Below, piece after piece: positions 45,801 to 63,495 of a stretch of DNA of 64,000 nt. Source of the DNA: Geosiphon pyriformis (Eukaryota; Glomeromycota; Glomeromycetes; Archaeosporales; Geosiphonaceae); contig JAAOMT010000176.1 of the NCBI GenBank assembly GCA_016748015.1, positions 296,434 through 360,433 on the forward strand. Direction: 5' to 3'. The number at the start of each line of letters is the position of its first letter. Within the stretch, counting starts at the first letter, position 1. The translations under genes were made by a program, and so were the position numbers. The notes under the pieces are model-generated. The model ran no database searches, was not told the DNA's origin, and saw nothing but the letters and a program-made list of their open reading frames with translations.

Positions 45801-46019
45801 GTTCTTTGCTAGTGCTCTGTTTATTTGTTAAGTTCTCTTGTTTATATTTATGTCAATGCTTCTAATAACTTTCTAGTGGGCATGGTTCATGTTCTTCTTG
45901 ATTGCAATTTGTCTCTGGGTGGCTCTTTGACCAATCTTTTTTGGTTTTATGGTAGAGTCCTTATGTCTATTGTTCTGGGTGAGTCACAATTTCTTAGGTT
46001 TTTTTCTTCTCTCCAATGG
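42890..46019 (+). pseudogene. LINE ORF2: endonuclease and reverse transcriptase (5' part)
   Basis: An AP-type endonuclease begins at about 42899 (RVATCNIRGINNSVKQKNII; TETKLKD at 42994-43014), shifts frame near 43140-43240 and continues with FIVLGGDFNKDD (43307-43342) and KKTIDYVLVSSNLVNAV (43453-43505), both typical catalytic/binding blocks. Reverse transcriptase: LPDGKAAGLSGITNELWKHC (44427-44488), PIALIKTACKILSKIFSDRI, GLDQGEVFSLLLWCIFYDSL (45004-45063) and the active-site block AGAFIDDTIWVGS (45174-45212), where the usual A/YxDD is FIDD. Many stops interrupt it. The RNase H half lies beyond the LTR-element insertion at 55928-56963. Confidence 0.85.
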
Positions 46020-46949
46020 TGTTACTTGAATAGAAAAACTGATCTGAAGTTATGAAGAAACATGACCAGAATGTGACATAACCCAGAATAGCACACAATA
46101 ATGTTGAATAACACGTTATAATTTAAGATAGCATGCAATAACATTGAATAACGTGTTATAACTTAGGATAATGCAAGATAACATGTTACAACAAGGAATA
46201 ACACAGAATAACACTAGATAACATGTTATAACATAGAATAACTAGTAATAATGTAGAAGAACAAAGCAATAACAGAAATAACAAAGCAATAGTTAACAAT
46301 AATAAAACAATTAGAAGCAATCCTGTAAAACCAAAAGAATATATAAAAACGAGTAGTGGTAGAAAGTAGAAAAACAGGACAGATAGATACGAACCACTAG
46401 ACAAGAAACAAACATCCATCACCCCTTCTCATTTATTATATTTCCATATTCATCTTCTGAAATAAATCAATTATCAAAGAAATCAGAATCATGAATTCAT
46501 GTTCTCAAACTGTATGAGATTTATGTGAATTAATCATTGTTTTGTATCTTTATTTTAGAACAGATGCTCTTAGCATAACCACTTTGAACTATTAATGATT
46601 TGGACCAATTGCTCTTGATCATGACAATTGACAATACTAATTTATTTTTTATTTTTTTTCTTTTTCTTTCTTTCTTATTTTTTTTTGTGGAGCAGCAACA
46701 TAGTAAAATCAACTGTGCTCGTTAGCTCGGAGAAGAAAGCTTACATTTATGGAAGACATTGCAATCGACGAAAGACAAACTCTGTGCCTTATAATCAAAG
46801 AACTCAATGGGTAGATTCACATCCAGAAATAGACCTTCAGAGACTAATAATCGAGACTAAGCCAACAAAATTACATGAAAGACACATTACCAATAATTGA
46901 GAGCATTAAATATTATCATCTTCATTACCTACCAAGTTTACTCATAACA
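46020..46949 (+). repeat. Left LTR of element 1 (930 bp)
   Basis: Begins TGTTAC and ends ATAACA. The U3 part has about four tandem units of about 40 bp (46090-46250) rich in palindromic GTTATAAC/ATAACATGTTAT text. A TATA box (TATATAAAA) is at about 46339 and AATAAA at about 46461, followed by T-rich text at 46640-46690. Confidence 0.92.
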
Positions 46950-46951
46950 TT

Positions 46952-46968
46952 TGGTGCCCCCTGTGAGG
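46952..46968 (+). other. Primer-binding site of element 1
   Basis: TGGTGCCCCCTGTGAGG starts two bases after the left LTR. It begins with the TGG that pairs with a tRNA CCA end and is strikingly C/G-rich for this window. The matching tRNA was not identified. Confidence 0.75.
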
Positions 46969-47010
46969 TTATAAATCCACAGAGACAAAGCACCCCAGAA
47001 ATACACAAAA

Positions 47011-48630
47011 GTGGTGACTATTGGAACAGTAGAAAAGAACCACTCCCCATACAGAAGAACACTATTTCAATACTTTCGAAAAGACCTAGAAATACCAGCA
47101 GAAACTGCTTATACAGAAAGTGATTTTTATAACTATATCAATGCAAAAATTGACTGCTTATTAGGCCATGCAACTGACACAGGAAGACTAGAAGAACAAA
47201 TCTATCAAAGCTTATTAGGGTACTTAACAGCCACGACTACCCAAGCAATTACTGAAACTCTGTGCATAATCAATACAGACATTAAATATTACATGGCAAA
47301 ACAATTCTCTCAAGTACAACAACCAGTGGAATCTGATCCTGAGGAATACGAAGACAAATCCAACAATCCCGTAACTGCCTAAGCCAAGTCCATAGTCAAC
47401 AAGAAACCAAGGTTCCTCTTCCCAACAACTCTATCATACCATCAGACACCCCAAAGTAGAATTGTATTCAACCCACTCCCGAAAACCCAGTCAGAAACAC
47501 CACGAACTCCTAGAAATCTATACCCTTAAAATCAACATAGTTGGACCAAATTATTAGGAGAATATGGATCATTGTTTGGAAATCTCTCCTCAATACTTAA
47601 CAAAACAGACGGAAATACATCAACATGAGAACTACTGCCAACCCAAACATTGACCAAATCATCAATTACCTCCTTTGAAGAAACAGCTATCTTCCAGTCC
47701 ATTGGGAAAATTAATAAAGAGAAACAACCAGAATTAGCACCAGGAGAACACTTTAGCATGCAAACACCAAACCTTCCAGTATCAATCAGTAAGACTCCAC
47801 CTACTCACCAGATCATGGCTTACTGAGATATTGCCAAATTAAAGAAATTCTCTGGTGAAAAAGATGACACATATATATGGATCGCGGAAGCCAAGAAAGC
47901 CATCACTGCCAACAATTAGAATAATGATAGGACCATTCAAGTATTGCCATTCTTTCTAACTGGAACTACAAACTCATGGTATTAAAGCCTTGCAGAGAAA
48001 CCAACCGACTTTGCCACCTTTAAACTTGTCTTTCTGCAATACTTTTGTGATCCCAACACTTTTATTAGATTACAAAATTAGTTCAGTATCATAAAACAAA
48101 AAGACCACAAAGCAGTAACTACTTATCTTGGATGATTCAACCAAATTATTCTTTAAATCCAGGCCATTGAAAGAGATTACTACACTGTGGCGCAAATCCT
48201 TAACCAATTCATCAAAGGATTAAAAAGCAGTCTCCTCCGATCCATAAGATCCCACCACCTAATAAACCTACAAAAAACAGTTACTCTTGTTCATGATTTT
48301 GAGTCAGCAGAACAAGAGACTAACCATACTCAAACCATTAACCTGGCTATTAATGGAACATCTGATATCAACACAAAAATAATTCAATTAAGTGAGAAAT
48401 TAACTCAGAAAATTGAGGGATTTTTAGCCAGTACTGTAGGACTTTACCAACCACCACAACAAAAAAATAGTAATAACACTAGATACCAACAACAACAGAA
48501 TCACCAGCAACAACAACAATCTTGAAGATCCAATTCCTGCAATTGTTACTATTGCCAGAAATCTGAACACATCATCTGGGACTGTTATAAAAAAGTAATG
48601 GACCAAAACCAAAGAAATCAATATTAGCAC
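47011..48630 (+). pseudogene. Element 1 gag with CCHC zinc knuckle
   Basis: Frame 1 holds a first part (47011-47382, including LLGHATDTGRLEEQIYQSLL). A Gag capsid-like segment follows (about 47860-48330): WIAEAKKAITANN, VLPFFLTGTTNSWY, FATFKLVFLQYFCDP, then the open piece from 48187 (AQILNQFIKGLKSSLLRSIR). A Gln/Asn-rich tract leads to the knuckle CYYCQKSEHIIWDC at 48544-48585 (C-x2-C-x4-H-x4-C). There are at least six stops in frame. Confidence 0.82.
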
Positions 48631-49149
48631 CCAAGATACTCTTAAAACATAGTATTCCAATATCCTACACCTCAATATTAACTGCCTTAATACTCACCAC
48701 AAATGCAGTATACCCAGTAACCACCTCAGACCTACTACCAGTCTTCACAGCCAATGGCTCAAGCAGTACTCCAATACCAAAACTCCGTTAATAGCCAACC
48801 TAAGCATCGTACAATTGATTACAACTAAGGATAGAGAAACCTCAGCAACAACTAACAATGTACCATTGTGATCCCTAAATTGTAGTAATGTCTTGTCTCA
48901 ATCAGCACTAACTGGATACTCTAACCAAGCCTCATATCTTGGTCTCACTGAAAATCAAGATTTTTATAGTTCTACACCTTTAGAAGAAAAGGATATAGGA
49001 GAGACTTTCACCTCTTTAAGGTGAAATCAAATCAACAATACCATTCCACCTGCCATCATTACTGAAAACACTACTCTTGCAGCCATATTCCCCTTCAATA
49101 TTGACCATCTGAACACCACTAACTTTTTCAGTAAAGCCGCCATTAATCA

Positions 49150-49510
49150 GGATAAACCAATTACAGCTCTGTACACCAATGCTAGAGTTGGGAACATAAA
49201 TATTAAGTTAATCTTAGACAGTGGTTCAGCAGACAGTATAATAATGAAACAACTCATGGATCAATTAAGTCACTGAATAGATTATGTCACAACTACTTGA
49301 ATCATCACCACAGACAGCAATACCAAGACTCTCATTGAAGAAATCAATAATTTCCCCTTTGAGATCAACAGAATCCAGATTTCTATTAAAGTCTTGGTTA
49401 TAAAAGCCATGTAATATCAAGCTTTCGTCGAAAACCACTGGTTGGCCAAAGTCTATATCACTCTTGACTGGAACACACAGGAATTACAGATCACCTTTAA
49501 TAAATGACAT
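49150..49510 (+). pseudogene. Element 1 aspartic protease
   Basis: The active-site block is IKLILDSGSADSIIMKQLMD at about 49201-49260 (D-S-G motif), followed by ITTDSNTKTLIEEINN and KVLVIKAM…YQAFVENHWLAKV. It matches the intact protease frame of element 2 (KLILDSGSTGSIIIRQLIDQ) residue for residue over most of its length. It contains several stops. Confidence 0.85.
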
Positions 49511-49749
49511 GTCTGAATCCCAGCTATATGCAGATACTTCCAAGTCCAAAGCTCAGAGGAACTACTAATTGAATTCGATGACACAACACCACCACTTACC
49601 ATAGAAACCTATCAAGTTTTGTGGGCAGATGATTTCTGAACAGAGTTACTCCCACTACCAACTTGGAAAGAAAAAGGAAAGGGAAAAGCAGAAGAACTAC
49701 AATCAGCACCTGCAGACTATTCTACCTTAAGTCAAGGAAGTCAATAATA

Positions 49750-50290
49750 TTGAGCCCTGAAATTAAACTGTGTTGACTGTGGAAAAAAGTTATCCTCTAT
49801 GGGCATGTGTATAGGAGATAATAAAAAATGGCCAACTGCTACAAAATACTATTATAGACTATATGTAATGGAAAGATTCAGAAAACTGAAATAACAAGAC
49901 AAATGGGACAGTACACTATGTTTTGCCTATGGCGAGATTTTGCCAGATAAAAGATTCTGGAATAATGTATTTGGCAGAGGAGAAACATGTAATGAAGTGT
50001 GTTAATATATCATCTTGATTAATAATTGGGTACAAAAAAGAACTCCAATCAAAGCTGTCTGGAGACAAGCTCTCAGTAGATTAGACAGCTATCCACATGA
50101 CAAACACAAAATATGGAGGATGGCAAGTGCCAAATCTGAAAGTGCTATACTTAGTGAAATATGAAAAGAACAGAAACAAAGACTAATTGACTTAAACACA
50201 AAATTATGTGATTATTGCCTAATCCCTTGCTATTTTCAGTATTGTGACAAATATGACCTCATGTTTAATCCACTGCCAAGAATATTACAT
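49750..50290 (+). pseudogene. Element 1 Cys-rich domain between protease and dUTPase
   Basis: Not a standard Ty3/Gypsy pol domain that I know. It has a first pair CVDCGKKLSSMGMC (about 49770-49811), then KYYYRLYVMERFRKLK, CFAYGE, FWNNVFGRGETCNEVC, YIILINNWVQKRTPIKAVWR and a final cluster CDYCLIPCYFQYCDKYDLMF before NPLPRILHSI. The Cys spacing suggests a zinc-binding fold. Element 2 has the same order with more Cys retained (CANCGKKLSSMGVC, CLACRE, CDEMCQY, CDHCLIPC, YCNECD), so conservation is at protein level. Function unknown. Confidence 0.7.
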
Positions 50291-50429
50291 TCTATTGACA
50301 AGCTACCAGAACCCGAAGAAGAAGCTGAATTAATAGTTGAGGACATGCTGTTTTAAGAGCCTAATGAGACTACCAAAACATAGCAGTACTTTGCGTATCC
50401 CAATCTATCCAAAAAACTAGAGCTAAAAT

Positions 50430-50870
50430 GGTACAGTGACAATGAAGAAAAAATTTGCTCTGAAAAAATGCATAACACCAATGCTGGTTTCAACCTATAA
50501 TACCCTGGACAATCATCCATTATTATAGCCTCACATTCCCTTGTAAAAATAGATCTTAAGATAGCATTAGAAATTCCTGTTAGTACAATAGTATAAGTTG
50601 CCTCTTGATCTAGTCTAGCCAAGAAAAAAATTGACGTAAAAAGAGGAATCATTAATGCCAGTTACACAGAAAACATCATCATGATACTACAAAACAATTC
50701 GGACAGACCTTACAAAATAAAATCACAAGAAAAGATTGCCTAAGCTATCTTCCTACCCCTAGTCAAAATACCCCAATTAATTCTGGTAACAACCCAAGAA
50801 GAATTAGGCCTCACTGCTTGAGGAATCAACGGGTTTGGATCAAGTAGAAGAGAAAACGTATCAATCAACT
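50430..50870 (+). pseudogene. Element 1 dUTPase domain
   Basis: The domain hydrolyses dUTP, limiting uracil in new DNA (family knowledge). Motif 1 reads NAGFNL (canonical DAGFDL) at 50479-50496; motif 2 VASRSSLAKKKID; motif 3 GIINASYTENIIMILQNN (canonical G-x-I-D-x-x-Y-x-G); motif 4 QEKIA; motif 5 GFGSSR at about 50829. The catalytic Asp of motif 3 is Asn, as expected from G-to-A. Stops are present, so it is dead here; element 2 retains the better version. Confidence 0.83.
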
Positions 50871-51299
50871 TTACAGAGAAAAACAGTAACCAGGTAGAAC
50901 TTATTTACACTAACACAGTCATCTCTATTCCCCTTTATTAACAATACCTCCTTAAGGTGAATTAAAAGATTTAAGATCAAGCCCTGTTATTTAAAGCCAA
51001 TCCTGAAATCTGTTTTCTAGCCAATATTGCTAACTTATACCTATCAGCCAAAGCCCATAAACACTTCAAAATCCCCATCCACAATCCCACAGAATATGTA
51101 ATTGAAATTCCTGAAGGAATCCTTATTGGTTCTATCTCACTGAACATTCAACATCCCAAAAAACCTCAGTCCATTCCAGATTTCGCACAGCTATTCTTAT
51201 TTTGTGACATTACCTTACAAGTATGGAATTTGCCAAAAGAAAGTTATTTGTTCACACCAGAAGAGATCAATAAATTGAATTTAGAAAACTTAAGTACTT

Positions 51300-52675
51300 T
51301 GCAACAAATGCAACTCAAAGTTTTTCTGAATTAGTATGCTGATGTTTTTGCCAGTGAAAATGAGTTCAGACACACCAACATCATAAAGCATCAAATTGAT
51401 ACAAGAGATGCTCAATCTATTAAACAACAAGCTTACTGAGTACTCCCATTTGATGACAACCTTATCAAACAAGAAGTCCAACAAATGCTTGACAACAGTC
51501 TGATCAAAAAATCATTAAGCCTTTAGTCCTCTCCAGTAGTCTTGGTCACCAAGAAAAATGGAAAGGTGTGATTCTGCATAGATTACCAAAAACTAAATAG
51601 TATCATGTGAAGAGATAGTTATCCCACTCCCCTTATTCAAAAAATTCTGGACAATCTAGAAAAAAAGAAATGGTTCTCATCATTAAATTTAGTAAGTGGT
51701 TATTGGCAAGTTGAAATAGACCTTAAAGACAAAGAAAAAACAGCATTTACCACTTAAGATAGAAACTTCAAGTTTAACATAATGTCTTTTGAACTCTGTA
51801 ATGCTTCCACCACATTCCAGCGCCTCATGGATATTGTATACAAAGGAATCCTATGGAAATCAATCATAGTATATCTAGATGACACCAATGTTTTCTCTGA
51901 AATGTTCAATGATCATTTGCTCTATCTGCAATAAGTCTTCAAATGTCTTCGTAGTGCTGAATTGAAACTCAATCCCGATAAATGCTTTTTTGGAAAAACT
52001 GAGTTAAAGTTTCTAGGACATGTAATTGGCAAAGATGGAGTCAAATCCAATCCAGATAAGGTCTGAAAAGTCAAGAATTTTTCAGCCCCAATTAACTTCA
52101 GAGAATTATGAGAATTTCTAGGATTGGCAGGCTATTATTGTCGATTTGTCAAAGGTTTTTTGAACATTGCAAAACCACTCCATTATTTGTTGTCCAAATA
52201 CATACCATACTTATAGAAAGAAGAGCAACAGAAAACATTCGACTATCTTAAGCAGTATTTGATTACATCTCCCATCCTGATTTACCCAGATTTTATTAAA
52301 CAGTTTATTGTTGCTATGGACACCTTAAAAAATGCTCTAGGAGCAGTATTATCTCAGATAGGACCAGACAATAAAGAACATCCAGTTGTCTATGCCAGTT
52401 GTAGCATAAGCCCAGCAGAAAAAAATTACAGCACAACAGATCTGGAATGCTTCGCCATTTATTGGGCCATACAGACTTGGAAACATTATCTCAGTCAACC
52501 ATTTGATCTATATACCAATCACAAAGGACTTATTTGGTTACTCAATAATCCACAATTAGAAAAAAAATATGCAAGATGGAGTACTTATCTGCAACAATTC
52601 TCACTCAAAGTCCATTACAAGGAAGGATCCAAGAACACCAATGCTAACAGTTTGTTGAGGATACCACAAACCTAA
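51300..52675 (+). pseudogene. Element 1 reverse transcriptase and RNase H
   Basis: SPVVLVTKKNGKV then a TGA for Trp then FCIDYQKLNS (51533-51600); WFSSLNLVSGYWQVEIDLKD; FELCNASTTFQRLMD; active site SIIVYLDDTNVFSEMFNDHL (51862-51921); LKLNPDKCFFGKTELKFLGH. RNase H is open from 52259 to 52675: FIVAMDTLKNALGAVLSQIG (the first acidic residue), AEKNYSTTDLECFAIYWAIQ, YTNHKGLIWLLNN (canonical TDH is TNH here, again Asp to Asn) and VHYKEGSKNTNANSL. About ten stops lie in the RT part. Confidence 0.9.
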
Positions 52676-52879
52676 TCCCAAACCTATGGACACACTCATT
52701 TATCAATGACTACATCAGTACTTATCAACACTACATTTCAAGAAAATATTATCTCAACAGGAACACAGTACCATATAAAAACAAGCCCGAAATTATTTTA
52801 TTTAAGACAACCAACTATATCAACGAGAATGTCAAAACTGCCCCACCCCACAACAAGTTATAAAGAACAGTAAAAAAAA

Positions 52880-53975
52880 AACTATATTACATAATATGCA
52901 TTCTGATCCAACTGCAGAACACTTTAACAAGGATGCTACCCTTAAAAAAACACTAAATTTATATTATTAGCCAACAATGTACAAAGACATTTTTGAATAT
53001 GTGCTCAATTGTGATGCATGCCAGTGAAAAAGAGGAGCAAGATCAACAAAACTACTTTGACCCATTCCAGTTGGAAATCCATTTAATAGAATCAAGATTG
53101 ATTTGGTTGGACCTTTTTTGATTAGATTTCAAGGAAATTGCTATATCACTGTAGTCGTAGACTATCTTACAAAATGGCCAGAAGCCAGAGCAATCCAAGT
53201 GGCTGACACCAAAACAGTAGCCAAATTTGTGCATCAAGACTTAATTTGCTGATATGGATGTCTGAAAGAATTATTATCTAATTAAGGAACACATTTCATT
53301 AATAATATGCTAACTGAACTAAGCCAATGGTTTGGAATAAAACAACTCTTATTATTACCATACCACCCACAAACAAATGGACTGGTAGAACAATTTAACT
53401 GAACACTGTGTGAAGCACTAGCAAAAATAAGTCATAAAAACAAACAAGAATAGGACTTATTCATACCTTCTGTACTCTTTATATACCGAACATTAAAACA
53501 AAATATGACTTATTTCACACCCTTTGAACTAGTTTATGGAAGAAAAGCTATATTACTGATTGAACAAGTGATATTGTCATACCCAACAGAAACAATTAAT
53601 GAAGAAAATTTTGAAGCTACCTTATACTGAAGAACATACCAGCTAATAAAAACATTGGAAGACAATCAAAAAATAACAGCTGACAATATTAGTCACACTC
53701 AAAAATGACAAAAAGAAAGACATAATAACCACCTACTAGAACAACCAATGGAATTCAAGATTGGAGACCAGGTACTATTACATCATACAAAAGCAGAGAA
53801 ACAGTGGAGTGAAAAGTTCGACCCAAAGTGGGACAATTTATTCCATATACATGAAGCATTAGGAAATGGAGCTTACAAATTACGATTAGAAGACAAGATT
53901 TTAAAGAAAGTAGCATATGGAAATTGGTTAAAAATTTATCATGCAAAACAGAAATTATTGTCATCAATACCTTAA
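52880..53975 (+). pseudogene. Element 1 integrase
   Basis: The HHCC zinc domain is at about 52893-53030 (MHSDPTAEHFNKDATL, then VLNCDACQ). Core: KIDLVGPF holds the first Asp (about 53098-53112). The second catalytic Asp is changed to Asn, followed by a stop (LLSN-stop-GTHFINN, 53271-53300), where element 2 keeps LLSD. The Glu block PYHPQTNGLVEQFN is retained at about 53359-53400. A C-terminal domain is open from 53748 (KIGDQVLLHHTKAEKQWSEK, then AYKLRLEDK), ending at 53973-53975. Confidence 0.9.
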
Positions 53976-54123
53976 CTAAATTTTATTAATCAGACCAGAA
54001 GATATATCACAAGATCTGGAACCAATCATTGTCATCAAAACATAGACAATGTACAGCAAATTAAAGTAGGGAATTCAAATATATAACATCTAAAAAGCAG
54101 CAAGAAACAATAGAAATTTCAAT

Positions 54124-54861
54124 ATGGACCTTTCAGATCAAATTTTAAAATTATCTAAACAATTATTTGAAACAATTCAAAAATTGACATCTCAAATAAA
54201 AATTATAATTGATAGAAAAAAAATAAGATATAGAGATAAGGGGAAGGAAGGGATGGGCAAAAGTTCAACTAGAACTAACCGTTCTCATCTCTACACCCTG
54301 CCTGAGAAAAAAATTTTACAAAAAAAAATTAATTCGTCTCAGGCAGGGCTTGAAGAAAGTGTAAAGGAATAAGAATTATTTTATAAAAGAAGATATTTGG
54401 TCCCCAAGCTAGAAAAAATAAAAGAAGCTTTAGCTTATGGGACTGAACTTCCCGAAACAGAGAAGTAGACACTTGACAATGCCCAGGAATGAAAAGAAAG
54501 ACTGTCTCCAACATATTGGTTCTACAAAATTGGTGAACAACTAGATTTGAAAACACTATATAGAGATTTCAGCCAGAAAACTTTCAACAAAAAAGCAATA
54601 CAACAAGTAGAAAAATTCATAGGAAAAAGCAATCTGACCCTACATTACAAAACAACATACTGACTATATACTGCTTTCCAATATTGTCCAAACATACTGC
54701 TGTATGGATCTATAAAGATAATAACGGTTAACAACATAGGATGAATTACCAATCGACAGTTCGAAGACCTATGAAAAACAATACTTGACACAACAATCGA
54801 ACATTACACAAATGAAGACATAAGAACAGATACATATAATTTTGCAGGAGCTCAATTCTAA
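54124..54861 (+). pseudogene. Element 1 post-integrase ORF (ORF3), unrecognised
   Basis: A separate reading frame starts about 150 bp after the integrase stop (MDLSDQILKLSKQLFETIQK). A basic Lys/Arg region follows, then FYKRRYLVPKLEKIKEALAY, LSPTYWFYKIGEQLDLKTLY, FNKKAIQQVEKFIGKSNLTL, FQYCPNILLYGSIKIITVNN and a final GAQF-stop at 54859-54861, one base overlapping the polypurine tract. Element 2 encodes a matching protein in the same place. There is no hydrophobic span, so it is not an envelope-like membrane protein. About six stops, most explicable as Trp or Gln codons. Confidence 0.7.
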
Positions 54862-54875
54862 AAAGAGAGGAATAA
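54861..54875 (+). other. Polypurine tract of element 1
   Basis: AAAAGAGAGGAATAA immediately precedes the right LTR (TGTTAC at 54876) and would prime plus-strand synthesis. Confidence 0.85.
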
Positions 54876-55927
54876 TGTTACCTGAGTAGAAAAACCAATC
54901 CAAAGTTATGAAAAAACGTGACCAGAACATGACATAACACAAAATAGTGCACAATAATGTTGAATAATGCATTATAATTTAGGATAGTGCACAATAACAT
55001 TGAATAACGTGTTATAACTTAGGATAGCACAAGATAACATGTTACAACATGGAATAACACAGAATAATACTAGATAACATGTTATAACATAAGATAATTA
55101 GTAATAATGTAAAAGAATGAAGCAATAACAGAAATAACAAAGCAATAGTTAACAATAACAAAACAATCAGAAGCAATCCTGTAAAACCAAAAGAATGTAT
55201 AAAAGCGAGTAGTGATAGAAGGTAAAAAAACAGGACAGATAAATACAAATTACTAAACAAGAAACAAATATCCATTACTTCTCCTCATTTATTATATTTT
55301 CATATTCATCTTCTGAAATAAATCAATTATTAAAGAAATCAGAATCATGAATTCATGTTCTCAAACTGTGTGAGATTTATGTGAATTAATCATTGTTTTG
55401 TACTTTCATTTTAGGACAGATGCTTTTAGCATAACTGCCTTGGACTATTAACAATTTAGACCAATCGCTTTTGATCACAGTGATTGATGATATTAATTTA
55501 TCTTTTCTTTTTTTTCTTTTTTTTTCTTTTTTATTTTCTTTTGTGGAGCAGCAACATAGTAAAATTAACTGTCTGGAAATAGACTTCGTGATAGCCTGGT
55601 AAAAGAGGGAGGCTCCCTCTAGGTTTTGGATATTAACATTATCTTGTTAGCTTACCAGAAAAGTGAAAAGACACCACCAGACCCTAATGACTGTGCTTAT
55701 TAACTCAGAGAAGAAAGCTCATATTTACAGAAGATATTGTAATCAACAAAAAACAAACTCTGTGTCTTATAATCAAAGAACTCAATGGGTAGATTCACAT
55801 CCAAAAATAGACCTTCAGAGACTGATAATCGAGACTAAGCCAACAAAATTACGCAGAAGATGCATCACCAATAATCAAGAGCACCAAACATTACCATTTC
55901 TATTATCTACCAAGTTTACCCATAACA
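54876..55927 (+). repeat. Right LTR of element 1 (1052 bp, with 122 bp insertion)
   Basis: Aligns end to end with the left LTR (TGTTAC...ATAACA). Excluding 55573-55694 its length is exactly 930 bp. The same U3 palindromic repeats (54950-55110), TATAAAA at about 55198 and a T-rich tract at 55500-55540 are present. Confidence 0.92.
55573..55694. mobile_element. 122 bp insertion in the right LTR
   Basis: Absent from the left LTR. ACTGT stands just before it (55568-55572) and ACTGT ends it (55690-55694), as a 5 bp target duplication would. It is more G/C-rich than its surroundings and contains a GAGGGAGGCTCCCTC hairpin (55605-55619). No terminal inverted repeats. The text TAGCCTGGTA followed by GGTTTTGGAT weakly resembles tRNA box A and box B, so a tiny SINE is possible; a deletion in the left LTR is the alternative. 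Confidence 0.6.
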
Positions 55928-56964
55928 ATGGTATAGTATTGTCTTTGTGAATCAACTTTATAATCATTATGGTTCTGTCTTTGATTGGCACATTTTCAAG
56001 TGTTGGAAGAAGTTGGACCCCTGTGGTCTTGTTCCTGAGTAGTTCAGACTTTTTGTTGTGTTTCTTGATAGTGAAGGTTTTTTTCTTACTCATCTCTTGT
56101 CTTTGGATAGTGTTAATTCTTTAAACATTCTTGAGTCTTATGATTTTGTTTCTGTTTGTGATTGTCTCTCACAGGTTAGTGTTAACAGTTTGTCAGTGTA
56201 TACAAATGGATCTCTTAGTGGTCTAGGCACAGTTAGCTGTAAAGCTGGAGCTGCTGCTTTTTTCAAAGATATTGATTTGAGTTTGGGTATTGGTGTGTTG
56301 GGTTTGATATCATCTACTTTGGTAAAGTTGCAGGCTAATTGCACTGGCTCTGGAGTGTGTTCCTTCAATAAGCTCTGTTAAATTGTTTTTGGATAGCCAA
56401 TCTGCTCTGGATGCCTGTAGGTCAGAATTGGGTCTGGCATGTCCCAATTTCCATAACCAGTATTAGGTAGAGTGTCATTATATTGTCAATGTTATTCACA
56501 ATAAGAATTTAAAGGTCAGCTGGCATAAAGTTAAAGATTACTCTTGTGTTTTAAGAAATAAGCATACTGACACAATTGCTGGTAACACTTTTCTCTCTAG
56601 TTAGTATTTTTTTTCTCACTTGGGTGAATGCTTTATAATGGCTGATGGTGTTGTTGTTTCAGGCAATTCCAGACATTTTGTTTGTGATATTTATTGTTTG
56701 GTTTGTTGTATATGCTGAGAGATTGGTTCTGGTTCCAGGTTTTTGGCAGACAGTTTGTTTTTTGAGGTTGATTAGCTCTATTCATCTTTGGTTTGGCACC
56801 TTGACTTGCATATAGTTGCCAGTTTCACCAGCAAACTCTCAGCTAATCCATGTACTTATTTCATAAAAGCTCTACATCACCAGCTGCTGGTTGTTATTTG
56901 GAAGCACCTCTATAATAAACTCTTGGAAGGCAGCTTCTGGTCTTTCTTACTCTTCTTTAGGTGT
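55928..56964 (+). mobile_element. LINE, second part of the split copy (RNase H onward, truncated)
   Basis: Continues the LINE after element 1. The RNase H block is at about 56200-56330 (SVYTNGSLSGLGTVSCKAGA, then LVKLQANCTGSGVC). A piece with SNPCTYFIKALHHQLLVVIW and KHLYNKLL at 56835-56925 is the start of the zinc-finger region. The sequence is then replaced at about 56962-56965 by the end of a second LTR element. The missing C-terminal domain and 3' tail of the LINE, if still present, lie beyond 64000. Confidence 0.85.
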
Positions 56965-57837: not shown

Positions 57838-57855
57838 TTATCTCCTTCTTTTAAT
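57838..57855 (-). other. Polypurine tract of element 2
   Basis: On the minus strand, TTAAAAGAAGGAGATAA directly precedes the LTR, parallel to AAAAGAGAGGAATAA in element 1. The ORF3 stop overlaps it. Confidence 0.75.
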
Positions 57856-58510
57856 ATTGAGCTCTATCAAAATCTTTGTTTTGAATTAATTCTAATACTT
57901 TTTTTTTAAGTATTGTTTGTTCGACTTTGTTCTTTACATCTTTTACTTGTGTATTGTTCATTCTTCTCTATTGGTTAATGGTTATGATTTCTATGTCAGA
58001 GTGTAACAGTATTTCTGGATAGTTCTGAAATATGTTGTGCAGTTAATAAATTGTTCTTACATGTAGTATCAAGTTTATTTTTTTTTCAATAAATTCTTCA
58101 ATTTGCTGTATTATGTTTTGGTTAAATACTCTCTTGGATTTGTCGATATACAACTTCTGTATATTCAATTTTCGACCTAGCTGGTAGTAATAGTATGATA
58201 TTGGAAGTTGTTTTGTCCATTGCTTCCAATTTTTTTTTGTAAGCTCTTCTGTTGGTGCCATAATAAGTATTTTTCCAAAAGTGTTTTTTACTTTTTCTAT
58301 TATGTTATTTGATCAGTTTTTATCATTTTTTGGTACTTGCTAATATAATGTATTCTTTGTCTTTCTTTTGGTGTTTTGATAGCAAATTGTTTGGTTGTTG
58401 ATGACAATTTCTATGTCTAACTGTTGTTGACTTAGTGCCTGGGACAGTTGTTGAGTTATGGTGTGAATGTGATCTGGTATTTCCATTTTTCTTGGTTGCT
58501 TTTGTCATGT
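57851..58510 (-). pseudogene. Element 2 post-integrase ORF (ORF3), unrecognised
   Basis: From 58261: APTEELTKKNWKQWTKQLPI, SYYYYQLGRKLNIQKLYIDK, FNQNIIQQIEEFIEKKINLI, a stop at 58043, then FQNYPEILLHSDIEIITINQ, VKNKVEQTILKKKVLELIQN and a final RAQY-stop at 57851-57853. This aligns along its length with ORF3 of element 1 (SYYYYQLGRKLNIQKLY against PTYWFYKIGEQLDLKTLY; PEILLHSDIEIITIN against PNILLYGSIKIITVN). The N-terminal part (58508-58323) is basic and low in complexity. No membrane span, signal or known domain is seen. Confidence 0.7.
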
Positions 58511-59989: not shown

Positions 59990-61240
59990 TTTCTATTGTT
60001 TTTTCCCTTTTTATAATGTACTGTATAATTAAATGGTGAAAGTTCTATTTTCTATCTGGCATGGCAATTGTCTGCAAATTTTTGTTTTTGAATTGAAGTC
60101 AATTCTTTGTGATCAGTGTACACTTCAAACTTTTGGCTCAAGTATTCCTTCTATTTGATAACAGTCCAATAGATAGCTAAGTGTTCTAGTGCTGGAGTTC
60201 CATAGTTCTTTTCAGCTAGACTTAAGCTTCTACTGGCATAAGCTACTGGATGTTCTCTTTCATCTGGTTTTTTCTGTGATAGTACTGCTCCCAATGTTTG
60301 GCCAGATGCATCAGTAGTAATGCTGAATAATTTGCTGTGATCTGGATACATTAATACTAGAGCTTGAATAAGCTTTCTTCTTAAGATATCAAAAGCTTTT
60401 TGTTGAGTTTCTGTCCATTCATACTTCACATTCTTTGTTTGAAGTTGGTGTAGTGATTGGGTTATTTTGGAAAAATTCTTGATGAAGTGGCAGTAGTATC
60501 CAGCAAATCCCAAGAATGCTCTCAATTCTGTGAGATTATTTGGTACTAGAAAGTTTTTGACAGTCTTAATTTTGTCTGGATCTGTTTTTATTCCATCTTT
60601 GCTTACCACATGTTCCAAAAACTTGAGTTCAGTTTTTCTAAAGAAACATTTAGTTGCATTTAATTTTAGTCTGGCTCTTCTTAACCTTTCAAACACTTGT
60701 TGAAGATGATACAGATAATCATTGAATGTTTTTGAGAACACATTGGTATCATCCAAGTATATGACTACTGACTTCTATAGTAGTCCAATATATACAATTT
60801 TCATTAGCCATTGGAATGTGGCTGGTGCATTTATCAATCCAAATGGCATGACTTCAAATTCAAAATTTCTTTTTCTTGTGATAAATGCTGTTTTCTCTTT
60901 GTTGGCTGAATTCATGGCTACTTGCCAATAACCACTATCCAAATTCAGTATTGAAAACCATTTATTTTCTCCAAAAGCATTAAACAGCTCTTGGATTTTG
61001 GGCGTTGGATAGTTATCTTCTTTGGTTACTCTATTCAGTTTCTGGTAATCTACACAAAAGCAGATTTTCCCATTTTTCTTTTGGACTAGTACCACTGGTA
61101 ATGACCATGGGCTCATTGATGGCTGAATTAGCCCATTGTTAAGCATTTGGTTAATTTTTTGACGAATGATCTTATGGCTAGCTGGTGGTACTCTGTATGC
61201 TCTTTGTTTAATTGGCATTGCATCTCCAGTTTTGATCTGA
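59990..61240 (-). pseudogene. Element 2 reverse transcriptase and RNase H
   Basis: RT begins in the long 62493-60775 frame (SPWSLPVVLVQKKNGKICFC; DYQKLNRVTKEDNYPTPKIQ; WFSILNLDSGYWQVAMNSAN; PFGLINAPATFQWLMKIVYI). A TAG at 60775-60777 replaces the Trp seen as TGG in element 1, after which the frame reopens with VVIYLDDTNVFSKTFNDYLY (active site YLDD). RNase H follows (FSITTDASGQTLGAVLSQKK; NYGTPALEHLAIYWT; VYTDHKELTS), with stops from 60151 on. Confidence 0.92.
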
Positions 61241-61769
61241 TGCTGGATGATGTTGGTTCTGCCAAATTCGTTTTTGCTGGCAAAAATGTTATTGAAGTTG
61301 CTGAGTAACATCTTTAGTTGCATCTGTTGGAGTGGGTCTAGATTCCCTATGTTTATCTGTTCCAATTGTTCTGGTTGAAGCAGATAACATTCATTTCGTC
61401 CATAGATGGTTTGTGATATGATATTCACATATCCACAAAGCTGTGAAAAATCTGGAATATAGTTTGGTGGTTGGTTCTCAACTTTGGTGGTTAAATATCC
61501 AATGATAGTTCTTTTTGGTATTTCAATAATACATCTTGTTGTGTTGTAGATGAGAATTTTGATATTCTTGGGGCTGTTGGCTGATATGTAGAAATTGGTG
61601 AGTCCAATTTCTCTTGATTCACAAATGATAGCTTCTTTTTCAAACAACTGAGCTTGATTCTTTACTTCTCTTTTTATAGCTAACATATACTGGTCATATG
61701 GTGGAATGAAAATTGTGTGATGAGTTGAAATAATTTCTTTTTTGTCAACAATTTTTTCCTCTGCCATAT

Positions 61770-62250
61770 TAACTGGTATATTTATTCTACCCATTGATCC
61801 AAATCCTTGTATCTCTCTAGCAGTAATCCCCAATTCTTCTCTGTTTTTTACTAACACTAGCTGAAATACTTTCACCAAAGGTAAGAATATTGCCTGTGCT
61901 ATCTTTTCATTTGGATCTATGATATATATTTTTTCTGAGTTATTTTGTAGCATAGCAATGATATTTCCTACATATCCTGTGTCAATTATTCCTTTTCTAA
62001 TGTTGATTCCCTTTTTTGCTAAGCTACTTTTGGATGCTAATTGAACCATTGTTGTTGCTAGAATTTCCAGTGCTATTTTCAGATTGATGCAAGTGCATAA
62101 GTAAGGTTCTAATTTGATGGAATTTTTCTCCAGATATCTCAGATCAAATCCTGCATCAGTATCATGTGTGTGTTTAGGCATAATATCTTCATTATTATCA
62201 CTAAACCATTTCAGTTCTTGCTCTTTGGTAAGATCAGGTAGAGCGATATA
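61770..62250 (-). CDS. Element 2 dUTPase domain (within a 572-codon open stretch)
   Basis: Part of the uninterrupted frame 62493-60775. Residues about 111-245 carry the five trimeric-dUTPase motifs: DTDAGFDLRY (motif 1), LASKSSLAKKGINI (motif 2; the usual Arg is Lys), GIIDTGYVGNIIAML (motif 3, catalytic Asp present), NEKIAQAIFLP (motif 4) and GFGSMGR (motif 5). An acidic Asn-rich linker (residues 40-85) separates it from the Cys-rich domain. About 200 residues between motif 5 and RT (for example FIPPYDQYMLAIKREVKNQA and EIPKRTIIGYLTTKV) resemble a second beta-rich domain repeated in element 1. The domain could still fold; the polyprotein as a whole is interrupted. Confidence 0.85.
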
Positions 62251-62429
62251 TGTTTCGGAGTTTAAATTAGAGTCTGGATTGTTGTTATTTTTGTTGTTGT
62301 TTTGAGCAGAACTAAAACCAGTGTTTTCATCATCATCATTGTCAGAGTTTGAATTGGGATTGAAAATTGATTTTGATTCTGATGCACAGTTGCTCATTGG
62401 TTTGTCTTCTTCTGGAATTGTGTAGATCA

Positions 62430-63085
62430 TACATGGTAGTGGATTGTAAATAAGGTCACACTCATTACAATACTTGAAGTTACATGGGATCAAACAGTGG
62501 TCACATAATCAGATGTTTATTTCTTCCAAGCATTGTTTCTGTTTCTTTCTGGTGGGTGCCAATTGTTGGTAATGTTTATGGAATTCCTTTGAATTGTCCT
62601 TGATGTTGCCAAAAATGTTGAAAGTTTAGATGTATTCAGGTTCAAGAAGTGATAAAGGGTTGTTTTTGATTTTTAGTAGTTCACTGGTTGTTGCACTTTC
62701 TGCTTTTGCATATGCCATTCTTCAGAGTTCATGTTTGTCATGGAAATATCCTTCTAATTGTTACAACACTCTTTTCCAGACATCATCGATTAGTGTGTCT
62801 TTGCATATCCAGTCATTGATTAAGATTGTATATTGGCACATTTCATCGCACATTCCTCCTTGTTTAGGAATGTTGTTCCACATTCCTTCATTTGGAAGAG
62901 TTTCTCTACAAGCTAAACATGGTGTATTATCCCATTTTCTCACTTGTTTTAGCCTTCCAAAATGTTCAACAAGATATGCGTGGCAATAAAACTTAGTTGC
63001 CATCTGGTATTCTTTGTTATCAGCACAGCATACACCCATTGAAGACAATTTCTTACCACAATTGGCACATATAAGCTTTAGTCAA
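62430..63085 (-). pseudogene. Element 2 Cys-rich domain
   Basis: CANCGKKLSSMGVCCADNKE, ATKFYCHAYLVEHFGRLKQV, NTPCLACRETLPNEGMWNNI, GGMCDEMCQYTILINDWICK, then (after stops near 62755 and 62510) CDHCLIPCNFKYCNECDLIY. At least six CxxC-like pairs suggest two or three zinc sites. It is located between protease and dUTPase as in element 1. Confidence 0.72.
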
Positions 63086-63495
63086 TAATAATTTGGTTGT
63101 GGTAGTGTGTAAGTATATGCATAATAAATGGTGATTGGTATTGGAATTTCTTCATTCTCTTTCCTTTTTTCTTTGTGGTTATCTTTTTCTCACTCCCAGG
63201 TTGTTGGTAGTTTGTTTTGATCGTTTTCAGTTCTCTAGACTTAATCCAAATTCCAGGTAAGTTCTTCTGTTTGTTTTCCTTTTCCCTTATTGTTCCAGGA
63301 TAATATTGGTGGTAATTTGTTGTGGTTGTCTTTATCAGCCCAGGAAACTTGATAGACTTCCCAGGTAGGTTTCTCTTTTTCTTTTTTCAATTCAATAAGT
63401 GGAGCTGATGGTGTGATAATAGGTTTGAAATGGCCATATATGGCTGGTATGCATGTGTTTCATTTGTTTTGGCTAAGCTGGAGCTCTTGGGTGTT

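Follow-up and report, generated by a model that had tools for sequence, protein, structure and literature searches.

Does the DNA between the integrase and the polypurine tract (PPT) of a decayed LTR retrotransposon of Geosiphon pyriformis encode a third protein, and what might such a protein do for the element? The window, i.e. the whole stretch of 64,000 nucleotides that was analyzed, contains two decayed LTR retrotransposons, each with an extra gene behind the integrase; its source was identified as G. pyriformis by a protein search, in which 35/35 matches were G9A89 proteins of this species. An initial annotation, made from the letters of the window, had placed an extra open reading frame (ORF) between the integrase and the PPT of element 1, and this placement agrees with the distribution of the following features:

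46020-46949, plus strand: 5' LTR of element 1 (TGTTAC...CATAACA), from the LTR alignment
46952-46968, plus strand: probable primer-binding site, adjoining the 5' LTR and assigned from its position
47011-48600, plus strand: gag region of element 1, with stops and frameshifts and a CCHC knuckle near its end; limits approximate (frame translations and the family of gag N-terminal copies)
49052-53975, plus strand: pol remnants of element 1 (frame translations; non-integrase domains named by eye)
54124-54861, plus strand: decayed third ORF of element 1 (group A), with six in-frame stops before the end stop (translation)
54848-54854, plus strand: GAGCTCA motif before the PPT, kept in five groups in two reading frames (copy comparison)
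54860-54875, plus strand: PPT, overlapping the stop codon of the ORF at 54859-54861 (sequence)
54876-55927, plus strand: 3' LTR of element 1 (LTR alignment)
57851-58486, minus strand: decayed third ORF of element 2 (group C), with four in-frame stops (translation, genome search)
61795-62184, minus strand: dUTPase domain in the pol of element 2 (Pfam PF00692, E 3.5e-17; residues 104-233 of ORF 60775-62493)

Element 1 spans positions 46020-55927 (LTR alignment, repeat pairs) and is flanked by ATGG at 46016-46019, which recurs at 55928-55931 (repeat pairs). Its pol remnants follow the order protease, cysteine-rich stretch, dUTPase-like stretch, reverse transcriptase, RNase H and an integrase with an SH3_Tf2-1-like end. 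The integrase frame of this copy has its stop at 53973-53975, and the integrase piece shows weak Pfam matches to rve, Integrase_H2C2 and SH3_Tf2-1 (E 2.1e-6 to 5.9e-4, under the curated cut-offs); no chromodomain was detected in it with Pfam. Element 2 is located on the opposite strand and has the same pol order, with its gag lying beyond the window. In both elements a stretch with several CxxC motifs separates the protease from the dUTPase (49800-50200, plus strand, and 62500-63100, minus strand); the element 1 piece had no Pfam match. The 3' LTR of element 1 contains 122 bases (about 55568-55689) that are absent from the 5' LTR, and an Rfam scan of 46000-56000 gave no match.

The frame at 54124-54861, initially described as 245 open codons, is in fact interrupted by one TAA, one TAG and four TGA codons before the final stop, and it is still interrupted under translation table 4. 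The proposed counterpart in element 2 does exist, with its limits corrected to 57851-58486 (the ATG is at 58486, not 58510), and it includes one TGA, two TAG and one TAA. A profile built from four family B proteins picked 3 of the 528 window segments, all of them over the two ORFs, with scores of 215.6 and 62.2 bits for element 1 and 64.5 bits for element 2, the best other segment reaching 7.3 bits.

The nature of the damage was analyzed in the genomic copies of the ORF, which fall into five homologous groups within G. pyriformis: A (including element 1), B, C (including element 2), D and E. None of the ten A copies is open (3 to 8 stops each). Within groups, informative transition entries greatly outnumber informative transversion columns (A, 167 vs. 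4; B, 216 vs. 3; C, 210 vs. 20; D, 67 vs. 6; L037, L057 and L080, which have a gap or are partial, were left out), and most stops can be explained by a C-to-T/G-to-A change from a sense codon that another copy retains (42/52 in A, 74/74 in B, 117/118 in C and 4/6 in D). The change is strongest at CpG, affecting 0.84, 0.67, 0.69 and 0.51 of pairwise C sites in groups A to D, respectively, vs. 0.10-0.32 elsewhere. Both window copies are pseudogenes, wrecked mainly by C-to-T/G-to-A mutation. Since transitions dominate and most stops are accounted for by this type of change, it is probable that the ORF was open in the founders of the groups and that cytosine deamination ruined the copies later. 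Classical RIP has a CpA bias, and the decay of the third-ORF copies (L001-L083) is of a different, CpG-weighted kind. Neither Geosiphon nor the string Glomeromyc- occurs in the main text of a survey of RIP in fungi (PMC12543289).

Searches of the genome yielded at least 152 matches for A/B and at least 150 each for C, D and E, i.e. about 600 scored loci as a lower bound, the four sets being taken as separate on their identities and not on compared coordinates. Stop-free rows are frequent in D (87/150, over a 140-residue part) and E (63/150, over 235 residues) among the matches listed, as counted by eye, and nearly absent from A/B (three, one of them partial, among those listed of 152) and C (1/150). 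For further comparison, slices were taken from the 10 best among 40 DNA matches that were scored for A, and from the best 30 of each search for B and C. The D slices (L071-L083) were picked from rows stop-free over the 140-residue query, which biases the observed proportion of open copies (10/12). At the protein level, a search with one A copy (L006) retrieved P0002, a protein of 244 residues with no stop, 64% identical over its full length. P0048 and P0109 are further database proteins that are naturally free of stops. Alignable and often stop-free ORFs are present in other copies of the family, as the initial annotation would require.

The relationship between the groups is supported to different degrees. 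The B profile scores 26.9-37.7 bits against eight D/E proteins, compared with a maximum of 7.2 in 2000 shuffles and 7.3 for unrelated window segments, and hhalign gives probabilities of 99.6% for B-C, 95.6% for B-E, 90.6% for B-D and 100% for D-E. The link of C with D/E is weak (hhalign 3-8%; profile scores of 10.3-19.3 bits vs. 9.5 for shuffles). Together with the profile scores, the shared position ahead of the PPT makes common descent of A/B/C and D/E the simple reading. An integrase match was found upstream of the ORF in 68/70 A/B/C loci (9/10 in A, 29/30 in B and 30/30 in C) and in 2/13 D loci, the other D slices being too short to tell. All matches of the protein searches belong to Geosiphon: 35/35, 4/4 and, for a D query with 194 proteins at E <= 1e-3, 120/120 of those listed; the method needs shared 5-residue words. 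When IMG/VR and prokaryote contigs were searched with alignment A1, 0/600 and 0/591 pattern matches, respectively, encoded a relative. In the literature on Geosiphon retrotransposons or transposable elements, the third ORF is described in no title or abstract start that was found.

The many stops of the window copies, together with last codons that follow a DNA motif, would also suit a non-coding stretch ahead of the PPT that is open to translation by chance. For D vs. E (235 codons, 16 pairs), dS was 0.86 and dN 0.20 (dN/dS about 0.24). Because of the deamination bias, a measure based on transversions only was also used: the rates at 0-fold and 4-fold sites were 0.063 and 0.207, a ratio of 0.31, vs. 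3.8 and 2.2 in the shifted frames. The corresponding ratio for A vs. B was 0.35, vs. 1.5 and 1.6 in the shifted frames (NG86 dS 0.48, dN 0.20); the shifted-frame figures derive from 1 to 3 fourfold changes in each pair. The sample comprised four D, four E and three or four copies each of A, B and C, all hand-picked, with the E copies stop-free. The ratios for B-C (0.63), A-C (0.56) and B-E (0.65) are weaker than that of D-E and lie near saturation. In group C, third positions account for 14 of the 20 informative transversion columns; groups A, B and D have few such columns, which are not clearly synonymous (3/4, 0/3 and 1/6, respectively), and those of B and D are mostly non-synonymous. As a yardstick, the integrase was compared between A and B (five copies each), giving a transversion ratio of 1.45, which counts neither way since part of the 25 fixed-offset pairs are disturbed by indels (nucleotide identity 0.55-0.90).

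Taken together, these results show that the third ORF is a protein-coding gene kept by purifying selection, and we are highly confident that it is a real, selected third gene. With many stop-free D and E rows and frame-specific constraint in two group pairs, a chance reading is refuted for the body of the ORF and, as an account of the whole, can practically be dismissed.

The tail of the ORF requires separate treatment. In A, B and C the ORF ends immediately ahead of the PPT, its last residues being GAQF, GAQY or a variant, and the matching GAQF/RAQY ends noted initially for the two elements are indeed seen. In D and E, the GAGCTCA before the PPT is translated in a different frame (ELS). Here the ORF continues through the PPT, whose purines encode glutamates, into a region that corresponds by analogy to the 3' LTR (TGTTACC). 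With transitions allowed, GAGCTCA occurs in one frame in 9/10 A, 28/29 B and 27/29 C copies and in the other frame in 11/12 D and 4/4 E copies; the remaining A to D copies gave no match. Since D and E read the same DNA in a different frame, the tail appears to be kept at least in part as DNA, and the shared ending, largely a conserved DNA motif beside the PPT, is a weaker argument for the relationship of the two ORFs than was first thought. The GAGCTCA motif is perhaps a part of plus-strand priming. More generally, a terminal motif shared beside a PPT can reflect DNA constraint rather than protein homology, which calls for caution.

The position of the ORF directly behind the integrase raises the question of its expression. 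In groups A and B, the ORF frame overlaps the end of the integrase without a common stop and is one base off, as might be expected of a C-terminal integrase extension reached by frameshift or stop read-through. The frame of the ORF relative to the integrase is, however, not constant: it is +2 in five A/B copies, takes two different values in three C copies and is +1 in one D copy. Moreover, in 12/12 D copies the ORF frame is closed by a stop 105 bases ahead of the ATG, and in 9/10 A and 30/30 B copies the integrase frame terminates at a stop 83 bases ahead of it. No Pfam match links the ORF to integrase extensions, a homology that would have spoken against the initial annotation. A conserved fusion is unlikely because the relative frame varies and because of the upstream stop in D, and the idea that the ORF is an integrase extension is accordingly given very little weight. 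In B (30 copies) a longer product is possible, as no ORF-frame stop is common to 90% of the copies until 339 bases upstream of the ATG. As the frame relative to the integrase differs between the groups, we consider a separate message for the ORF fairly likely; translation would then begin at a start codon of the ORF itself, on a transcript that is spliced or initiated internally.

Several observations concern the neighborhood of possible start sites. By eye, group A seemed to have an intron in its LTR leader; this candidate was rejected, since its donor is not kept in B. No conserved splice sites emerged. Between the integrase and the D ORF (L071-L083) lies an A-rich spacer that is conserved across the ten copies inspected and includes TATAATTTAG some 90 bases upstream of the ATG; it is possible that this spacer contains a promoter or a splice acceptor. 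At the other end of the element, the conserved part of the A/B and C Gag (L084-L101; window 46950-47382) begins with valine in 17/18 copies (GTG in the window). In most of the 18 copies, the stretch that separates this part from the in-frame stop close to the primer-binding site lacks a methionine, and Gag may need a non-AUG start or a spliced leader. One copy matching the A/B Gag piece (G000:C355:1830555-1830920) belongs to an open frame with a listed length of 2448 aa, i.e. an unbroken frame of gag-pol size is present in the genome.

The predicted protein is conserved in its N-terminal and C-terminal parts, and the linker between them is changeable and mostly basic; this linker contains most of the A-B differences (residues about 38 to 85, by eye, window A vs. 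P0002). It lacks a membrane segment: in six stop-free relatives, the maximum 19-residue Kyte-Doolittle mean ranges from 0.44 to 1.14, in agreement with the initial remark that there is no hydrophobic segment. A degenerate envelope gene, which the position after the integrase would suit, is therefore hardly credible, there being neither such a segment in these relatives nor a match to an env family. The description of the ORF as a conserved extra gene other than an envelope is supported by hundreds of genomic copies, by purifying selection and by the missing membrane segment, while the RNA-binding or structural accessory role first proposed for it is a conjecture. A basic N-terminal half had also been noted, and the net charge of this half is +3 to +10 in six B to E proteins; it is not distinctive in B, where the C-terminal half is equally basic (+11).

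Searches for a known fold or domain provided little guidance. Pfam and NCBIfam gave only sub-threshold scatter for the ORF and no known domain, and the best match by sequence in the PDB had an E value of 0.29. An above-cut-off match to RT_RNaseH in P0003 was discarded, as it covers residues 202-244 of a fused gene model, off the ORF family. Two AlphaFold models are of low confidence (pLDDT 55.7, pTM 0.46, and pLDDT 50.8, pTM 0.28), and both tentatively predict a helix plus a two-strand hairpin at the N-terminus, followed by a loose linker and then helices in the C-terminal part. Fold searches, performed with the first model alone (pLDDT 55.7), returned nothing usable.

A small and often basic protein (pI 9.3-9.7 in P0002, P0155 and P0048), mostly helical in these low-confidence models, could be a particle component, either a matrix-like or capsid-stabilising partner of Gag or a nucleic-acid chaperone for reverse transcription. 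The Gag of groups A and D already has a CCHC knuckle, and the two group E proteins examined have pI values of 5.8 and 7.1. Origin by duplication of the N-terminal domain of Gag was considered after a promising by-eye alignment with the C-terminal part of the ORF, and was rejected when hhalign gave at most 1.2% against the N-terminal parts of the A/B and C Gag, two parts that match each other at 97.5%. This lack of similarity also speaks against a particle component, a role that we consider rather doubtful.

The changeable linker and the detection in a single species would fit a host-interaction factor, e.g. an anti-silencing or Nef/Vif-like protein. The retroviral nef gene runs through the PPT into the 3' LTR, and the D/E ORF, which passes the PPT into the presumed LTR, has the same layout; the strong C-to-T decay also suggests host action on these elements. 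Selection over the ORF as a whole is, however, purifying, and host counter-defence is an unlikely function.

On balance, we favor the combined reading in which the ORF is the third gene of a Ty3-type LTR retrotransposon lineage in G. pyriformis, located behind gag-pol, and its product an accessory of the RNA phase or the particle. Because the CCHC Gag already supplies a nucleocapsid, an RNA-phase factor is preferred to a nucleocapsid; such a factor might bind the element's own RNA or Gag, and would most resemble CERV of Cer1 or retroviral Rev. By this analogy, RNA export or regulation is put forward tentatively as the function, and some activity beyond export, particle and counter-defence is about equally probable. 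More speculatively, the family could be private to an early-diverging fungal lineage and perform a Rev/CERV-like export of unspliced element RNA, with a nef-like layout in D/E whose last codons are the PPT and the first LTR bases. If this were true, a Rev/CERV-like accessory function would have arisen independently in a fungus.

Among known systems, the one closest in layout is Cer1, a Ty3/gypsy element of Caenorhabditis, with its protein CERV. The CERV gene, like the Geosiphon ORF, lies between pol and the 3' LTR, does not resemble env and has no obvious homology outside its host group (PMC10309623). CERV is there reported to be produced from a spliced mRNA and to be needed for the export of genomic RNA; its N-terminal half shares some peptides with GAG, whereas the Geosiphon ORF has no similarity to the N-terminus of Gag (PMC10309623). 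The likeness is one of descriptions, and CERV is used here as a working comparison rather than as a family to which the ORF would belong. Plant aORF-3S (Athila, Bagy2) include some env-like ORFs with transmembrane segments (PMC7264820), in contrast to the Geosiphon ORF, which has none and whose host is a fungus. As in the definition of aORF-3S, a sense ORF lies between the integrase and the 3' LTR (element 1 and the 68/70 A/B/C loci), with protein-coding character found in the D-E and A-B comparisons. LTR lineages of bdelloid rotifers, several of which encode a dUTPase, likewise include non-envelope ORF3s; the ORF3 products are GDSL esterases, DEDDy exonucleases or env-like (PMC5408684), whereas no such domain was detected in the Geosiphon ORF. 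Fungal Gypsy elements are also described with a pol-encoded dUTPase, which one family has between PR and RT, and a figure legend in the same source mentions an additional ORF of unknown function (PMC2864245). The ORF of Boty (Botrytis) is antisense, unlike the sense ORF described here.

The Geosiphon ORF is a new family within a known kind, the accessory ORF between pol and the 3' LTR. Its role is testable, since it is present in hundreds of copies, many of them stop-free, with measurable selection. Accessory genes in the env position, often without a known function, have been known from plants, nematodes and rotifers, and they are now also found in Geosiphon, a relative of arbuscular mycorrhizal fungi.
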